The notes beneath the pieces are model-generated. The model made no database searches. It was not told where the DNA came from and saw only the letters and a program-made list of their open reading frames with translations. Of a stretch of 35,986 nucleotides of DNA, positions 9,450 to 23,829 are shown piece after piece (within the stretch, counting starts at the first letter, position 1; each line of letters opens with the position of its first letter). Position numbers and translations under genes: made by a program. The DNA is from a virus. The stretch covers positions 1-35,986 of IMG/VR virus record IMGVR_UViG_3300029319_000184. The stretch is one strand, 5' to 3'.

Positions 9450-10367
9450 ATGAGTAAACGATCAACCACCACGGGAAACTTCAGTCATACCAGTTTGGGT
9501 AGGAACTGGCATGCTCGTAAAGGTTGGCGTCGATTCTTTTTCAGTGACTCCCGTTGTAGGCTGCAAAATGATCAAGGCGTAACTGTAGGCGGTAATCCTG
9601 CTGCGCCTTGCTCAGTAGATGAAAGTTCAGGCAACACGGTATTTACTTTCCTTTCAGGTCATAGTGGTGCGATAGCGGGGGGGTTCAGTCTCGACGGTCT
9701 CGTCGCCGGAATGCCCCTACTTACGGATGAAGGCAGTGTTCTTACGTTCGATAAACCGTTTGTGCTGAAAACAATGATTGAGTTGATTTCAATCAGTGGT
9801 GATCATTCTGATACGGACGAGGGTTCGTCAAACGCGCCACAGTTTAGAACGCATCCTCAAGTTACGATGGGCTTGACAGAAGAGACTGGTGTGGACTTTG
9901 CTAGCGACTCTGCGAGACACGTTGGTTCTGGTGTACGTATTAATGCGCGAAACCGTCAAAGCGAGACCGTGGGTGAGGACGCAAAGTATCTTATTGAAAC
10001 GTTAGCTACTGGCGGCTCCGGTCAGGTTGCTTCGACTGTTAGTTCTGACAATTGCATTCTTTATATATCTGAGTTTCACATTGGTCCCGACATGGCTACG
10101 TCAACCAACAATACCAGAGTTTTTCGGCAGTGCTTCAAAGCTTCTGGAGATAACTATGTCATACCTGTGGCTGCTTTGACGGACGTAGACACAAACGCAA
10201 ATCAAGGGTTTGATAGCGGCAGCACACCAGTAACCCTGTATGCCGCCGTTCAAGATAAACGAACAGATGCCTTTAGTGGAAACACTCCATGTGTTTTAAC
10301 GTGCCGACTTTGGTACATGGTAGAAGCTGATTACTACAACGGATTTGGTGGGAGCGGGACAGCATGA
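9450..10367 (+). CDS. Virion-type protein, paralogue A of tandem pair (305 aa)
   Basis: The N-terminus is basic and aromatic (Trp-His-Ala-Arg-Lys-Gly-Trp-Arg-Arg), then the protein becomes beta-rich. It shares architecture with the next gene: an early basic segment, Val-Phe/Val-Thr-Phe, a Pro-Phe-x-Leu-Lys strand (near 105), a Gly-Asp turn, a late Cys-Arg-Leu-(Trp/Arg)-Tyr strand, and a C-terminal Gly-Gly-Ser-Gly-Thr. The pair probably arose by tandem duplication. The ribosome site is weak. The start of the next gene overlaps the stop by four bases. The role is presumably virion surface or fibre, and the family is not recognised. Confidence 0.55.
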   Translation: MSKRSTTTGNFSHTSLGRNWHARKGWRRFFFSDSRCRLQNDQGVTVGGNPAAPCSVDESSGNTVFTFLSGHSGAIAGGFSLDGLVAGMPLLTDEGSVLTFDKPFVLKTMIELISISGDHSDTDEGSSNAPQFRTHPQVTMGLTEETGVDFASDSARHVGSGVRINARNRQSETVGEDAKYLIETLATGGSGQVASTVSSDNCILYISEFHIGPDMATSTNNTRVFRQCFKASGDNYVIPVAALTDVDTNANQGFDSGSTPVTLYAAVQDKRTDAFSGNTPCVLTCRLWYMVEADYYNGFGGSGTA

Positions 10368-11206
10368 ACCGAGTGCCAGGGGCTATCACTAATCTTGGGG
10401 TTGGCATGCGAAGGCGCAAACATTTGGGTTGGCGCACGTTTGACCTTAAAGCGCCAGACGTTGTGGCAGAAGACCCAAATGGTCATATTGCATCAGCAGC
10501 AACGACAGGCGGCAACTCGGTGGTCACGTTTGCTACGGCTTGTAGCCATACAACAAACGATGGCATAGACATGGCTGTCTTTGGTGTCCCTCTGACAAAC
10601 AACTACGGCGACCCAGTAAAATTTACCACACCGTTTTCTCTAAAATTTCAAATTGAATTTATTGGTTGCACTGGCGATTACCTCGGCAACAGCCAACCAG
10701 TGCCTTGCTTCGGCATGGGGATTGGCCAAAACGCATCTGATTTTGACAACACAAACAACCACTTTTTGATGCAGGGATATAAGCTTAACTCTTCCGCAGA
10801 TCCCCCCACATTGAGGATGTACAACAATCGATCTAGCGGCGAAACTGGTCAGACCGTGAACACCGGATCTTCAATGAACGCTGGACACGGGTTGCAGCAT
10901 TCAACGATCTATGTTGGTCCAGCTGTCGGATCGAATAGAGACTCAGAAAGCGTTTCAATCATTTCGAACGCAACGCAATATGCTTCTAACTCCTACCAAC
11001 AAGTAAGTACGCCGACTGGCTTAAAATACGACTTCAACCTGTCGTCTACGTTTGACTCAGATAACCAGATTTACTTGTACGCATTTTTTGGCACAAACGA
11101 CGCAACCTACGATTTTAGTAGTAGCGGCACTGTGCCCGTACTTACTTGCAGATTACGGTATTTAATTACGTCCGATCCCGGTGGATGGGGAGGCAGTGGA
11201 ACATGA
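10364..11206 (+). CDS. Virion-type protein, paralogue B of tandem pair (280 aa)
   Basis: The ATG overlaps the preceding TGA (ATGA). The product has the same plan as the 9450 product: a basic N-terminus with Arg-Arg-Arg-Lys, a Pro-Phe-Ser-Leu-Lys-Phe strand near residue 88, and a C-terminal Cys-Arg-Leu-Arg-Tyr strand followed by Gly-Gly-Ser-Gly-Thr. The middles differ strongly, as expected of paralogues under different selection. It is soluble and rich in Asn, Ser and Thr. The 9450 and 10364 products may form a mixed assembly, which is inference. Confidence 0.55.
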   Translation: MNRVPGAITNLGVGMRRRKHLGWRTFDLKAPDVVAEDPNGHIASAATTGGNSVVTFATACSHTTNDGIDMAVFGVPLTNNYGDPVKFTTPFSLKFQIEFIGCTGDYLGNSQPVPCFGMGIGQNASDFDNTNNHFLMQGYKLNSSADPPTLRMYNNRSSGETGQTVNTGSSMNAGHGLQHSTIYVGPAVGSNRDSESVSIISNATQYASNSYQQVSTPTGLKYDFNLSSTFDSDNQIYLYAFFGTNDATYDFSSSGTVPVLTCRLRYLITSDPGGWGGSGT

Positions 11207-11615: not shown

Positions 11616-12005
11616 ATGGCTAATGGAATGAAAAGTGGTGGATACGACCCAAACAAGCCGTTGCCGGATGCAACAATTCCGGCACTTCAGAAAGGTGGTG
11701 GAGGAGCTTCTACCGTCCCGACTGGTCCTGCTGTTTCACCTAGACCAAGAACGATGGGTGGGGTCGCTACAACAGCGCCCACCACGCCTCCGACAGGCAC
11801 CACTACAGGCTCCAAGTCTACCGCACAAACGATTATTGACGATCTTCGAAAGTTGCAAATCAGTGATGCTGAAAGTGATGCTCAAGACCAAATGCTGATG
11901 GACTATCTTAATCGGGAAACAACGAGCCCAGACAAGAAAGATCCTATGGTATTCAAGCCCGGTGGCACAGCCAATAAGAAGGATATGGAGCTGCCTAAGA
12001 AATGA
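11616..12005 (+). CDS. Pro/Thr/Gly-rich low-complexity protein (129 aa)
   Basis: Residues 1-70 are low complexity, rich in Pro, Thr, Gly and Ala. Residues 70-105 are a charged helix-forming segment with Asp-Asp-Leu-Arg-Lys-Leu, and the tail is Lys-rich. It is probably disordered at the N-terminus. It is not recognised. The next gene begins inside its stop (ATGA at 12002), so the two are translationally coupled. Confidence 0.5.
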   Translation: MANGMKSGGYDPNKPLPDATIPALQKGGGGASTVPTGPAVSPRPRTMGGVATTAPTTPPTGTTTGSKSTAQTIIDDLRKLQISDAESDAQDQMLMDYLNRETTSPDKKDPMVFKPGGTANKKDMELPKK

Positions 12006-12367
12006 GTTTAAGCGCTACCGGATTTGATGACGCTCTTGAGCATAAAATTATTCATGAGACCGCATCAACAAACAGCATTAACACCAATGTCGCTACGACA
12101 GAGGGTAGACTGTTTTCCGTCAAGATGGTCAACGGATCATCAAGCGCAGCGTATTTGAAAGTATTTGACGCTGAGAACCCTGTTCTTGGTACAACCTCTC
12201 CGTTTCTTGTACTTCCGGTAGCTGGTAGCGCCACAGGTTTTTATTCAATTCCTGGCGGCTTATCGTTTACCTCACTTAGTTTTGCATGCACCCTAAACCC
12301 AAATCCCTTGGACACAACCGCGCCATCTGGAAATACTGTTGCCGTCACGCTAGTATGTGGTGAGTAA
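12002..12367 (+). CDS. Small virion-type protein, cassette gene 1 (121 aa)
   Basis: This is a member of the roughly 120-residue beta-rich family. It has a variable N-terminal third, then Ser-Val-Lys-Met-Val-Asn, a Tyr-Leu-Lys-Val strand, an Ile-Pro-Gly-Gly turn, Leu-Ser-Phe-x-Cys, and a final Asp-Thr...Pro-(Ser/Gly)-Gly...Val strand. The closest relative in the window is the 21577 product, which shares the Cys strand and the Asp-Thr...Pro-Gly end. It is followed two bases later by 12370. The same gene order is repeated at 21577/21954. Confidence 0.55.
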   Translation: MSLSATGFDDALEHKIIHETASTNSINTNVATTEGRLFSVKMVNGSSSAAYLKVFDAENPVLGTTSPFLVLPVAGSATGFYSIPGGLSFTSLSFACTLNPNPLDTTAPSGNTVAVTLVCGE

Positions 12368-12369
12368 TC

Positions 12370-12765
12370 ATGGCTTCTACAACAACATCTACAATCGCAT
12401 CACTGGGTGGAAAGCTTGTTGTAGACCTGTCTGTCTCTGCAAACGACCAGAGCGGCGTAAACAACAACGTTACGGCAGGCACTAGCGGTTCAATTTATTT
12501 GATTGAAATTAGCAATCCTGGGTCTGAACCGTTGTATGTGAAAATACGAGATGCATCCAGCGCCGTACCAAGCACATCCACTGCGAATGGCAACGGAACC
12601 CCACACATGATGTTGTACTGTCCAGCTTATGGCAGTACCTCATACGCAATACCGGGAGGATTTGCTTACTCTTCTGGGTTGTCATTTTGGGCCTCAACTT
12701 CAGCATCAGTTGGTTCCAACTCTAGTCCATCTTCGTCATCAATCGTTAGGATTGCTTGCTCATGA
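12370..12765 (+). CDS. Small virion-type protein, cassette gene 2 (131 aa)
   Basis: The N-terminus begins Met-Ala then Thr-Thr-Ser-Thr-Ile, as in the 21954 product. Both then carry Ile-Tyr...Glu, Asn-Pro, Pro-(Leu/Val)-Tyr-Val-(Lys/Arg), Ser-Thr-Ser-Thr and Trp-Ala-Ser-Thr in the same order. Serine and threonine are very abundant, with no membrane segment. It is probably a virion surface protein, inferred from its position in the late block. The next gene starts inside its stop (ATGA at 12762). Confidence 0.55.
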   Translation: MASTTTSTIASLGGKLVVDLSVSANDQSGVNNNVTAGTSGSIYLIEISNPGSEPLYVKIRDASSAVPSTSTANGNGTPHMMLYCPAYGSTSYAIPGGFAYSSGLSFWASTSASVGSNSSPSSSSIVRIACS

Positions 12766-13447: not shown

Positions 13448-13731
13448 ATATGAAAGAATGGGTAGTTCCTGGGATTACTGTAGTTTTTGCTGCTGGTATT
13501 TCTTTTGCCTCTCTTGAGTCAGCGGCTCAAGATGTTGAGGACATTGACAAGCGTGTAGAAGTTCTGGAGTCTAAGTCTGGCAAGCAAGAGTTGGTTGATC
13601 TTAAGATTGAAGGCGTTGAAAAACGTCTCGATAAGATGGAAGACTTGATGGCTAAAATGCTCGAGGTGCAACAGCAACAGGCAATCAATCAAGCGAAGAT
13701 TTGTTCTGCAACCAACGCGGACTGCGACTAA
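13444..13731 (+). CDS. Membrane-anchored coiled-coil protein (95 aa)
   Basis: AGGAG lies seven bases before the start, and the ATG overlaps the preceding stop. A hydrophobic segment at residues 6-23 is either a signal peptide or an anchor. Residues 30-80 are a strongly charged heptad-like coiled coil, and the tail holds two Cys (87 and 94). This is the general shape of an inner-membrane spanin subunit. Other possibilities are a periplasmic adaptor or a virion-associated coiled coil. Its TAA overlaps the start of the next gene (TAATG). Confidence 0.5.
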   Translation: MNMKEWVVPGITVVFAAGISFASLESAAQDVEDIDKRVEVLESKSGKQELVDLKIEGVEKRLDKMEDLMAKMLEVQQQQAINQAKICSATNADCD

Positions 13732-14306
13732 TGCGGCCCATTCTTTTAGATTATGTGGCCTCGTTGGGGCATACAGTATTCGAGAAAGGTGATTACAACC
13801 TGAACATCATCGGCATCCGAAGCCGTGATCACCAAGCAAACAGCTTTGATGACCGCATGTGTGTCGTGTTCCGTGATGAGCAAGGCTGGATTACCCGTAC
13901 ATGGGAATGCACAACTGAGCCTGGAAAGTATTGGCTTGAAAATCCCACCAACGTAAACGGAACTGCTATCCTTGTGCCTGGACAGTACCGGTCTGTTTGG
14001 AAGATTGACAAGCACCAGGGGAAGTACGATGCGCTCTGCCAAAGGAACGGCACGGTCAAGGTTTACCGAGACGACAATAAAGACGACATTATTGATCTTG
14101 ATGTACAGTCTATTACTGAAGGCTATTATGGCATCAATATCCACAAAGCTGGATCAGCGTCTACGCAGGTAGATAAGTGGTCAGCAGGATGCCAAGTATT
14201 TAGCCACAGTAAGGACTTTGAAGAGTTCATGAGCATTTGCTACGCAGCAAGGGAGAAGTGGGGTAACAGCTTTACGTACACGCTTATTGATGAACCGGAG
14301 TTCTAA
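13731..14306 (+). CDS. L,D-transpeptidase-like cysteine enzyme, candidate endolysin (191 aa)
   Basis: The start is the ATG in TAATG at 13731; an upstream TTG is in frame but lies inside the previous gene. Residues 134-156 hold Gly-Ile-Asn-Ile-His138-Lys-Ala-Gly and, after a short loop, Trp-Ser-Ala-Gly-Cys154-Gln-Val. The His...Ser-x-Gly-Cys arrangement is that of the YkuD/L,D-transpeptidase active site. There the Cys attacks the peptidoglycan stem peptide and the His activates it. The HGC of classical enzymes is AGC here, so specificity may differ. No signal peptide is present, so release would need a holin. In this setting cell-wall cleavage during lysis is the likely job, though wall modification is possible. 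Confidence 0.55.
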   Translation: MRPILLDYVASLGHTVFEKGDYNLNIIGIRSRDHQANSFDDRMCVVFRDEQGWITRTWECTTEPGKYWLENPTNVNGTAILVPGQYRSVWKIDKHQGKYDALCQRNGTVKVYRDDNKDDIIDLDVQSITEGYYGINIHKAGSASTQVDKWSAGCQVFSHSKDFEEFMSICYAAREKWGNSFTYTLIDEPEF

Positions 14307-21150: not shown

Positions 21151-21423
21151 TTATGGTTGGGACGGCTTGATTTTGTACATCACCTGTTGTTTGTCAGTGA
21201 TAAGGATAGACATTGAGATCCCAGTTTCTTTGCCTACTTTTGCTGCGTATCGGACCAAAGTGTCAACGGTAGCTGGTGGTCGCTTACCATTAAGAACTCC
21301 CCAAAGGTGTGTGTGGCCACAACCCATGAGATTGGCCGCTTCACGATAGCTTCCGCCAACGTGATCGAATAGCGCTTGAAGCGCGTTTGTGGTGTCTATT
21401 ACGATTCTTTTTGAATCTTGCAT
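21151..21423 (-). CDS. HTH regulator leading the replication operon (90 aa)
   Basis: Residues 25-55 fit a helix-turn-helix: Tyr-Arg-Glu-Ala-Ala-Asn-Leu-Met-Gly-Cys-Gly, then His-Leu-Trp-Gly-Val-Leu-Asn-Gly-Lys. The rest is helical with a basic end. It is the first gene of the replication operon and divergent from the 21577 cassette. A palindrome overlaps the -35 box of its own promoter, so autoregulation is likely. GGGGGAG provides a strong ribosome site. Confidence 0.65.
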   Translation of the reverse strand: MQDSKRIVIDTTNALQALFDHVGGSYREAANLMGCGHTHLWGVLNGKRPPATVDTLVRYAAKVGKETGISMSILITDKQQVMYKIKPSQP

Positions 21424-21446: not shown

Positions 21447-21475
21447 ACCGTAGGACACAAGGTTGCGCCTGTCAA
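21447..21475 (-). promoter_or_regulatory. Candidate promoter of the replication operon
   Basis: On the minus strand, TTGACA (21475-21470), 17 bases and TACGGT (21452-21447) lie just ahead of the HTH gene. The -35 is perfect and the -10 weak, as in promoters that need an activator. The context CCTTGACA matches the 17.4 kb promoter. Confidence 0.5.
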
Positions 21476-21483: not shown

Positions 21484-21532
21484 GTACACTACATCTTGTT
21501 CAAATCTTTTACGGGCGCGAATTTAATCTTCC

Positions 21533-21541
21533 TGCTATGAT
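21533..21541 (+). promoter_or_regulatory. Extended -10 promoter of the orphan cassette
   Basis: TGCTATGAT is an extended -10 element 35 bases before the 21577 start. No good -35 hexamer is spaced correctly. It matches the core of the late promoter at 6986-6994. Confidence 0.45.
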
Positions 21542-21576: not shown

Positions 21577-21945
21577 ATGGCTCTCAAAGTAAGTGGATAC
21601 GCTAGTTCAAGTGGATTGAAAAACAAAATCGTGTACCAATCCACAGTTACCGCAACAACGGACGTAGATGTACTTGGTACTGGTGGATCAATTATTTCTC
21701 TCGATCTTGATAATCTTCACAGTGCTACTGTTTACTTTAAGATGAAGACAAGCTCTGGCGTTTACACTGCTGGTTCAACATTCCCTGATTATCAGTTTCG
21801 CATCCCAGCAAACACCGCTAAGCGATTTGACTTCACTGATGGTCTACGCTTTGATCAGCTCACCTTCTGGTGTAATGATGGCCCACAAAACACAGACACT
21901 GACAACCCAGGCGGAACAGTCCTTGCTACCTTCGTGATCAAGTAG
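21577..21945 (+). CDS. Small virion-type protein, relocated cassette gene 1 (122 aa)
   Basis: The product belongs to the same beta-rich family as 12002. It has Ile-Ser-Leu-Asp-Leu-Asp-Asn, a Val-Tyr-Phe-Lys strand, Gly-Leu-Arg-Phe...Leu-Thr-Phe-Trp-Cys, and a final Asp-Thr-Asp-Asn-Pro-Gly-Gly...Val segment. It lies with 21954 as a + strand island between minus-strand early genes and has its own extended -10 promoter. The role is inferred to be virion decoration or host attachment. Its early-region position is odd for that and may reflect a recent cassette duplication or a moron-like insertion. Confidence 0.55.
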   Translation: MALKVSGYASSSGLKNKIVYQSTVTATTDVDVLGTGGSIISLDLDNLHSATVYFKMKTSSGVYTAGSTFPDYQFRIPANTAKRFDFTDGLRFDQLTFWCNDGPQNTDTDNPGGTVLATFVIK

Positions 21946-21953
21946 GAAGAAAG

Positions 21954-22325
21954 ATGGCTCTTACAACAAGCACAATCTCTGAGAATCTTTTCACTACTAT
22001 TTCCGAAGAATCGGATCTAGGCTTAAGTTTGGTTCTCTTTAATAATGCAAACACCACGATCTACGCAATGGAGTTTGTAAACCCAAACACTACTCCGGTT
22101 TATGTTCGACACATCTGGGGAACAAACCCTGCCCTGTTGAGCACTAGTACTGATTTTGACAACTGCTACCTCATTCCTGGGTCGGGAAGTTTTTCAGTGT
22201 ATTGCGGAACTGGCTATCTCGTAACCAGTGGGATTATCATGTGGGCATCGACACAGACTGGCACTCAGACACTAAGCGCGCCAACAAGCCCAGTAACAGT
22301 GAAGATTGCTTACAAAAATACTTGA
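21954..22325 (+). CDS. Small virion-type protein, relocated cassette gene 2 (123 aa)
   Basis: The product aligns with that of 12370 in order: Met-Ala...Thr-Thr-Ser-Thr-Ile at the N-terminus, Ile-Tyr-Ala-Met-Glu, Asn-Pro...Pro-Val-Tyr-Val-Arg, Ser-Thr-Ser-Thr, Trp-Ala-Ser-Thr and a closing Val-Lys-Ile-Ala strand. Gene order matches the 12002/12370 pair. The TGA stop is followed directly by the stop of the convergent minus-strand gene, with no terminator between them. The function is inferred as for its paralogue. Confidence 0.55.
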   Translation: MALTTSTISENLFTTISEESDLGLSLVLFNNANTTIYAMEFVNPNTTPVYVRHIWGTNPALLSTSTDFDNCYLIPGSGSFSVYCGTGYLVTSGIIMWASTQTGTQTLSAPTSPVTVKIAYKNT

Positions 22326-22652
22326 TTACCTGTAGTAGTCATAAAATGGCTCTGGTGGAATCAGGCAGCTTTTGAACTCGCAGCTTCTAACTGTTGAGTC
22401 CACAACGTAATGAATCGTTAGTGGGTCATACCAAGTTGGTTTTCTTGACCTAATTATCATTCCACTGTTTAGGCCTGGACACTTTATGGTAGCCTTGCAT
22501 TCATATAGACCATTTGATGCCTGAACTATCCAGGCCTTGTCTTCCACAGTTTCGTCAAAGATTTTGTATCGGTACGAACCTCTATCAAAATCTTCAGCAA
22601 AGCTGACCAAACTCATCAGGCTTAGGCCTATGAGTGTAGTTAGTATTGTCAT
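22326..22652 (-). CDS. Secreted small Cys-containing protein (108 aa)
   Basis: I chose the ATG at 22652, where GAGGAG is well placed. The first 19 residues form a classical signal peptide (Leu-rich core, Ser-Phe-Ala before Glu-Asp). The mature part has four Cys in two Cys-x-x-x-x-Cys / Cys-x-x-x-Cys pairs and many Tyr, which fits a disulfide-bonded periplasmic protein. It is not recognised. A secreted protein at the end of an early operon could act in superinfection exclusion or envelope modification, which is speculation. Confidence 0.5.
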   Translation of the reverse strand: MTILTTLIGLSLMSLVSFAEDFDRGSYRYKIFDETVEDKAWIVQASNGLYECKATIKCPGLNSGMIIRSRKPTWYDPLTIHYVVDSTVRSCEFKSCLIPPEPFYDYYR

Positions 22653-22666
22653 GTTGTTCTCCTCTT

Positions 22667-22674
22667 GTGGTGTC
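22667..22674 (-). repeat. GACACCAC motif copy
   Basis: An exact 8-mer within CCTTGACACCAC lies just 5' of the GAGGAG site of the secreted-protein gene. The TTGACA it contains has no -10 at the right distance. Confidence 0.5.
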
Positions 22675-22683
22675 AAGGTTTAA

Positions 22684-23325
22684 TCAGCCTCCCTTTTTTC
22701 CGCCCCCGCTTGGTGCTGGAGTGGGTGCTGGAGTCGGTGCCGCAGCAGCGGGCTTCTCGGCAATCGCAGACTGAACGATGTCGAGACAGCGCTTGAGTCC
22801 TTCAGGCATACCATCGTCACGGGCAATGACCTTGACGTTGTACTTGGCAGAGTTGTCTGACGATCGCGTGTTCTCGCTCTTGGCTGATACGGACCCGTGA
22901 ATCTTTACGTCAACGCTGACTGGGCCCCAGCCCGCCTTAATCTCAGTATCAATCGCAGCTTCGTAGTCACGGCTAGACTTCTCAGATGTGCTTGACTTGA
23001 CCTCCATGGTGAAGTCAACTTCAACTTCCTTTACCTGTAGTGCTGGAGTGTTGAGGATTGTCAGCAGCGGTACGTTCATGTCGTACTTGGCGTCGGTAAA
23101 CCCGCCATTTCCATCGTTGATAGGCTTTACGAACTGGAAGTCGCATGTCCGAGTACGAGTGACACCATCAGCGCCTACCTCAAGACCAACGTTCTGAATG
23201 AAGTCAGCGGTTGCCTTTGCAAGTTGAACCTGTGAGTCACAAGCAGCCTTGAGTGGACCACCAATAAGTTGGTCCATGGGAAGACCACCGAACTGGTCTG
23301 ACATTTTTACGAGTCCATCTGCCAT
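22684..23325 (-). CDS. DUF2589-like protein A (213 aa)
   Basis: The N-terminus has Leu-Ile-Gly-Gly-Pro-Leu-Lys-Ala-Ala and a following helix. It then has Val-Pro-Leu-Leu-Thr-Ile-Leu-Asn-Thr-Pro-Ala-Leu-Gln-Val and a strand with Val-Asp-Phe-Thr-Met-Glu-Val. I remember this pattern from DUF2589, a family of unknown function. Residues 185-213 are an Ala/Pro-rich linker ending in Gly-Gly-Gly-Lys-Lys-Gly-Gly. Ten bases upstream lies the shorter 23335 gene, which shares the same core, so the two probably interact. There is no signal peptide. Neighbouring SSB and helicase genes suggest early expression. Confidence 0.55.
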   Translation of the reverse strand: MADGLVKMSDQFGGLPMDQLIGGPLKAACDSQVQLAKATADFIQNVGLEVGADGVTRTRTCDFQFVKPINDGNGGFTDAKYDMNVPLLTILNTPALQVKEVEVDFTMEVKSSTSEKSSRDYEAAIDTEIKAGWGPVSVDVKIHGSVSAKSENTRSSDNSAKYNVKVIARDDGMPEGLKRCLDIVQSAIAEKPAAAAPTPAPTPAPSGGGKKGG

Positions 23326-23334
23326 TTTAATCTC

Positions 23335-23829
23335 CTAAGGAAGCAGCTTGATTAGCTGGTCATCTATACGTGCATAACCTTCTGGAGGCTCACTGCCCTT
23401 GAAGATCAGCTTGAGTTTAGCAGCATTGCTTTCTTTTTTAAACCAAGATGACTTGTTGGCGCACGGCCTTACCATCAACTTGCCTTTATTTTTGCCTGAC
23501 GTAAGCCCAGAGATCTCAACAGACATCTCCACTTCAAGCGTATCCACACGCAGGCTTTGACCCGTCGTGAGCGATTGGAGCGGGACCGGAACTCTTTTGT
23601 GTACCAGTACTCCATCTTCCCATGTTGGGAGTTCCATGATGACCATACGAGGTGCATATATGTGTCTTCCGTCGTCATCCGTGACAGGCTCTCCATTTTC
23701 ATCAACCTTACGCTCCCAAAATTCTTCGCTTGTAATTGAATCAAGCTCATGGCGCTCGGCAATATCTGTTGCCGCCATGACAGCAGACTGTATGGAATGA
23801 ACAATGTCGTCTAAAGAGTGGTCAGGCAT
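23335..23829 (-). CDS. DUF2589-like protein B (164 aa)
   Basis: After a helical N-terminus, the order is Val-Pro-Val-Pro-Leu-Gln-Ser-Leu, Leu-Arg-Val-Asp-Thr-Leu-Glu-Val-Glu-Met-Ser-Val-Glu-Ile. This matches the strand pair of the 22684 product and of DUF2589 as I recall it. The C-terminus is a compact basic-hydrophobic segment with Pro-Pro-Glu-Gly. It overlaps the upstream zinc-ribbon gene by eight bases. The function is unknown, and a heteromer with the 22684 product is likely. Confidence 0.5.
   Translation of the reverse strand: MPDHSLDDIVHSIQSAVMAATDIAERHELDSITSEEFWERKVDENGEPVTDDDGRHIYAPRMVIMELPTWEDGVLVHKRVPVPLQSLTTGQSLRVDTLEVEMSVEISGLTSGKNKGKLMVRPCANKSSWFKKESNAAKLKLIFKGSEPPEGYARIDDQLIKLLP

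Follow-up and report, generated by a model that had tools for sequence, protein, structure and literature searches.

The gene pair at 21577-22325 on the + strand of the window (the whole stretch of DNA analysed, a viral sequence of 35,986 bases comprising positions 1 to 35,986 of IMG/VR record IMGVR_UViG_3300029319_000184) is, as judged by sequence comparison, an old and maintained relocation of a duplicated pair. On the strength of predicted folds and of gene placement in relatives, this island is best explained, with middling confidence, as a second pair of accessory, decoration-type virion proteins under separate regulation.

Genome layout and gene pairs

The left half of the window carries on the + strand the gene for a protein of 2296 aa together with fibre-like and virion-type genes and a set of endolysin- and spanin-like genes; the right half carries RecT, RecE, helicase, primase and SSB genes on the minus strand. 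The related contig G011 encodes an internal virion protein (phrog_511, E = 2.5e-20) and resembles in this the podoviruses, which have such a protein as well. The late pair is flanked by fibre-like and virion-type genes on one side and by endolysin- and spanin-like genes on the other. The HTH/primase/helicase operon and the SSB/helicase genes border the island pair, which runs counter to both. The first-pass annotation had placed the four open reading frames correctly, all on the + strand, and its term 'early region' is apt for the position of the island, which is surrounded by RecE, RecT, primase, helicase and SSB genes. The genes concerned (referred to below by their first coordinate) are

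12002-12367, + strand, late class I gene, 121 aa; operon-like overlap with the stop of 11616; every relative has an orthologue
12370-12765, + strand, late class II gene, 131 aa; 3 bases past the 12002 stop and overlapping the start of 12756
21151-21423, - strand, small HTH protein, 90 aa; first in the leftward-running replication operon and transcribed away from the island
21577-21945, + strand, island class I gene (ORF), 122 aa; homologous to 12002
21954-22325, + strand, island class II gene, 123 aa; 9 bases past the class I stop; homologous to 12370
22326-22676, - strand, convergent small gene with a signal-peptide-like N-terminus (hydropathy); abuts the island stop

The product of 21151 matched Pfam HTH_31 with an E value of 0.0014, below the cut-off, and an orthologue of it (47-96% identity) was found beside every island. 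Orthologues of 22326-22676 adjoin the island in G001, G002, G003 and G006. Next to the island are two adjacent DUF2589 genes (22684-23325 and 23335-23829, - strand; E = 4e-43 and 8.5e-16), which are missing from that site in G001 and G003 and lie at the end of the early region in G010-G012 and G014. 23335 is 85-86% identical in G010-G012 and G014, most other genes there being 40-75% identical; from these values the DUF2589 pair is likely to be a recently exchanged module.

Two further observations concern the left half. Virion-type genes 9450-10367 and 10364-11206 (+ strand) form a second tandem duplication, with 27% identity over 300 aa (z = 24.8). The endolysin-like gene 13701-14306 (+ strand) reaches 85-94% identity in a number of contigs (among them L055, L057, L058, L064 and L066) in which the neighbouring pair genes are only 30-52% identical; the much higher identity of the former is a sign of lysis-gene exchange.

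Homology of the four genes

Local alignment scores were compared with those of 1000 composition-preserving shuffles and are given as z scores (standard deviations above the shuffles). Values of 16.6 for 12002/21577 and 14.3 for 12370/21954 were obtained, with 11.3 for 12002/12370 and 8.4 for 12370/21577. Profile-profile comparison using hhalign, a check that had been proposed earlier, gave E values of about 3-5e-13 for both paralogue pairs (island against late: 4.8e-13 for class I, 2.8e-13 for class II) and of 2.2e-9 for late class I against late class II. The motifs reported for 12370 and 21954 (TTSTI at the start, P.YV, STST and WAST) were found in these products. By these alignments 12002/21577 and 12370/21954 are true paralogues, with the order kept in both places; since 12002 and 12370 are homologous too, the four genes form, on the same basis, a single family with two classes, class I (12002 and 21577) and class II (12370 and 21954).

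The family had been thought to have up to five members in the window and has four. The candidate fifth member, 9094, falls outside it by sequence, with z about 0 against all four pair genes (between -1.4 and 0.7) and an hhalign probability of 0.6%. It belongs to phrog_30535 (E = 8e-22), the profile of which matched 9094 and none of the four pair genes, and it also matches two tandem genes of EBPR podovirus 3.

Searches of Pfam, PHROGs, NCBIfam, PADLOC and PDB sequences with the pair family gave nothing convincing, and megablast of the region against a phage collection gave no match. The class I alignment found no relative in bacterial and archaeal genomes and so provides no prophage or host hint. 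Rfam and tRNA scans returned no hits.

Location of the pairs in related contigs

Viral-contig searches returned relatives at 25-98% identity, and a set of 48 sequences was assembled from the window together with related contigs of IMG/VR and one jumbo phage. Throughout this set the pairs run class I then class II, the exceptions being the lone jumbo-phage gene and one contig-end fragment. Every contig that spans both places holds four members, that is, two pairs.

The second pair occupies the same + strand island opposite the HTH gene in eight contigs (the window, G001, G002, G003, G006 and G010-G012), the seven relatives all having an island class I orthologue at the equivalent site. The late pair precedes the lysis genes in these eight contigs and the second pair lies about 9-12 kb away; these eight are all the contigs that cover the island site together with the late pair, and the site is occupied in every one of them. 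Four contigs (G009, G013, G015 and G016) have both pairs in the late/head region. The two pairs are in tandem in the late operon of G009 and G016, with an orthologue of 11415 between them, and G013 has two late pairs, the class I frame of the upstream one having been read. One pair of G015 is late; the other stands directly before a same-strand run containing the terminase large subunit (phrog_2, E = 2e-28) and the major head protein (phrog_9953, E = 1e-21). G014 contains a late pair and a further class II-like gene cut by the contig end. A pair beside capsid genes is seen in G015 only, the pairs of the other contigs being near lysis genes or in the island.

The jumbo phage, Virus Rctr197k (a 197-kb phage contig), has a member of the same family, Rctr197k_171 (APU88968.1), with 34% identity to 12002 over the whole length (E = 2e-11). 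Unlike the window it has a single class I-like gene with no class II partner and no annotated function. This gene (L052 31253-31612, equivalent to KX853510.1 143253-143612, - strand) is the only minus-strand gene among 47 plus-strand features, with 750 bases upstream free of annotated genes, and adjoins a block containing a 'structural protein'. The record also has two annotated CRISPR repeat regions (L052 1-317 and 7281-7535).

Predicted folds

The AF2 models of 21577 and 21954 (pLDDT 71 and 79, respectively) both consist of a single β-sandwich domain of seven or eight strands with a shared strand order and no large helices. Hydropathy analysis indicated no transmembrane segments or signal peptides in either island protein. 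Many phage proteins of about 120 aa in BFVD match these models, with TM scores of up to 0.86, as does a 155-aa protein of Ralstonia phage RSK1 (E = 2.9e-6). Some BFVD matches have neighbouring accessions (A0A516LY34/LY35/LY45; MBK0/MBL2), which suggests several copies per genome in other viruses.

Matches in the PDB include nucleoplasmins (top, Z = 7.5), the trimeric cement protein of Helicobacter phage KHP40 (PDB entry 7dou; Z = 7.0, 3.0 Å over 95 residues of the 21954 model) and the turret of Haloferax tailed virus 1 (PDB entry 8qpg; Z = 6.3, 3.2 Å over 89 residues); all of these Z values, up to 7.5, are within the range of common unrelated jelly rolls and no solved fold stands out. Nucleoplasmin was considered as a clue to function and set aside as a common jelly-roll arrangement. 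The cement proteins of BPP-1 and ε15 were not among the PDB matches listed, which excludes nothing. No sequence match to a characterized virion protein was found in PHROGs, Pfam, NCBIfam or PDB sequence searches.

The Haloferax virus turret is a small β-sandwich virion surface protein, as the island products are small β-sandwich proteins by model, but it comes from an archaeal virus and has 7-9% identity and a Z value shared with unrelated jelly rolls. The gp1 protein of Ralstonia podovirus GP4 is an Ig-like cement protein of 157 aa, described as a single cement protein (PMC9698820), so podovirus cement proteins can be Ig-like. It and the KHP40 protein are small phage β-sandwich proteins like the modelled island products; they differ in that no sequence similarity to the pair family was found and that the window has two paralogous pairs. 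The late and head-operon placements taken together with the predicted β-sandwich fold are the grounds for preferring a virion accessory function.

Control region of the island

The 150-base stretch that separates the island from the HTH gene was aligned across five lineages, and the following elements were delineated.

21447-21475, - strand, predicted divergent promoter TTGACA-17-TACGGT of the HTH/primase/helicase/RecE/RecT operon
21486-21517, + strand, conserved block in the alignments, upstream of the -10; candidate regulator site
21533-21541, + strand, predicted extended -10 promoter TGCTATGAT, reading into the island pair; no good -35

The pattern TGnTAnGAT is invariant over the five lineages (TGCTATGAT, TGATATGAT and TGTTAGGAT) and no other nine-column block to the right of 21500 is as well conserved; when the column flags were shuffled, 26 of 5000 trials did as well. 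The proposal that the island has its own extended -10 promoter is thus borne out by a footprint in five lineages, as a matter of sequence conservation. A consensus promoter scan that required a -35 did not pick up this element, which was revealed by the comparison of relatives. On the opposite strand TTGACA-17-TAnnnT is present at the equivalent place in all eight contigs. The block 21486-21517, which may be a regulator binding site, is strongly kept in the window, G001, G002 and G003 and eroded in G006 and G010-G012. The host-type promoter sequence suggests expression of the island without a late factor. For a virion gene, a promoter of this kind next to the replication operon is unusual, and this counts against the virion accessory reading.

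The same promoter, facing the HTH gene and conserved over five lineages, would fit a new non-virion job taken on by the island pair after duplication (host takeover, anti-defence or replication-operon control), an explanation that we consider rather unlikely although it is the main rival of the virion accessory reading. It would also fit the faster divergence of the island genes (class II of the window against G002, G003 and G006: 40-46% identity for the island, 56-66% for the late copy) and the lack of a signal peptide, by which the island proteins are probably cytoplasmic. Against it, lineages with a different early module keep both pairs late and a pair heads the terminase and head genes in G015, so there is no fixed link between the second pair and early genes; moreover, the predicted fold class is unchanged and no PADLOC match was found. 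Somewhat less probable still is a division of labour in which the paralogous pair builds the virion and the pair that moved into the replication-operon control region acts before assembly; such action may be on a host target, or may tie surface-protein supply to an HTH-controlled switch.

Duplication history and selection

In the 48-row tree, classes I and II form separate groups, a split that is present in all 200 bootstrap trees sampled; its support is 92-93 in this tree and, at 88-93 overall, moderate. In the first, 21-row tree island class I groups with late class I and island class II with late class II, each group being one side of a branch. In the concatenated class I+II tree, where the two genes of each pair are joined, the island pairs group as a clade (95/92); a common origin of every 'second' pair was not rejected (p = 0.17). 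For class I alone, the island gene of G010 and G011 groups with a late gene of G009 (96/90), unlike in class II and in the concatenated tree; exchange between copies or a long-branch effect are possible causes of this placement. The dN/dS ratios between the window and G001 are 0.04-0.08 for all four pair genes (0.04-0.06 for the island genes), and all four are under purifying selection. 21954 is the fastest of the four (78% amino-acid identity to G001, dN/dS 0.06).

These results bear on the suggestion of a moron or switchable host-range cassette. Decoration genes are carried as morons in other phages, for example Dec of phage L, an accessory surface protein encoded outside the core late order; the island of the window differs in having a fixed place and paralogues among the late genes of the same phage. 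Recent acquisition of a cassette interchangeable between phages is in our view improbable: a counter-strand island with its own promoter, in the form of the conserved extended -10 sequence, and the varying neighbours, such as the DUF2589 pair, speak for it, but place and orientation are constant in all eight contigs and the divergence from the late paralogues is old (25-31% identity). The fixed locus, the island clade and purifying selection indicate an old, kept block duplication and not a recent moron, and as a recent gain the suggestion is not supported.

The claim that the pair was copied as a unit stands up to the trees. Independent tandem duplications, with a single gene moved to the island and duplicated there, would account for the clear likeness of late class I and late class II and for the moderate support of the class split; this is very improbable given the recurrence of that split in 200 of 200 bootstrap trees (48 rows), the invariable I-II order and the AU test on the 21-row tree (p = 0.04 with the early genes held together, 0.07 with the late genes held together). 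Least probable of all is that a second virion pair with the same job is kept mainly for dose or timing, which the two-pair rule across different locations would suit, but the 25-34% identity of island and late copies is far beyond the divergence needed for dose.

Proposed role and significance

In the virion accessory reading, an old I-then-II module would encode two small β-sandwich proteins, whose most likely role is a joint one as accessory proteins of the virion, be it of the decoration/cement or the appendage type. An ancestor would have copied the module as a block, each genome now keeping two versions, the second of which stands, in the clade of the window, opposite the HTH gene, the first of the replication operon. 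At this site the host-type extended -10 would drive the island independently of the late operon, probably assisted by a factor at 21486-21517, and the phage would gain a second, diverged surface-protein set with a dose, and perhaps a timing, of its own.

The pair genes define a family, with no Pfam, PHROG or NCBIfam match, of paired small phage proteins predicted to be β-sandwiches. It follows a simple rule of two pairs per genome in the contigs that can be checked, with the late operon, the position before the head genes and the replication control region as possible homes of the second pair. Should the island products prove to be bound to the virion, their separate promoter would allow the control of virion surface composition to be tested; should they not, the island would offer a case in which the recruitment of virion proteins to a different task can be traced.
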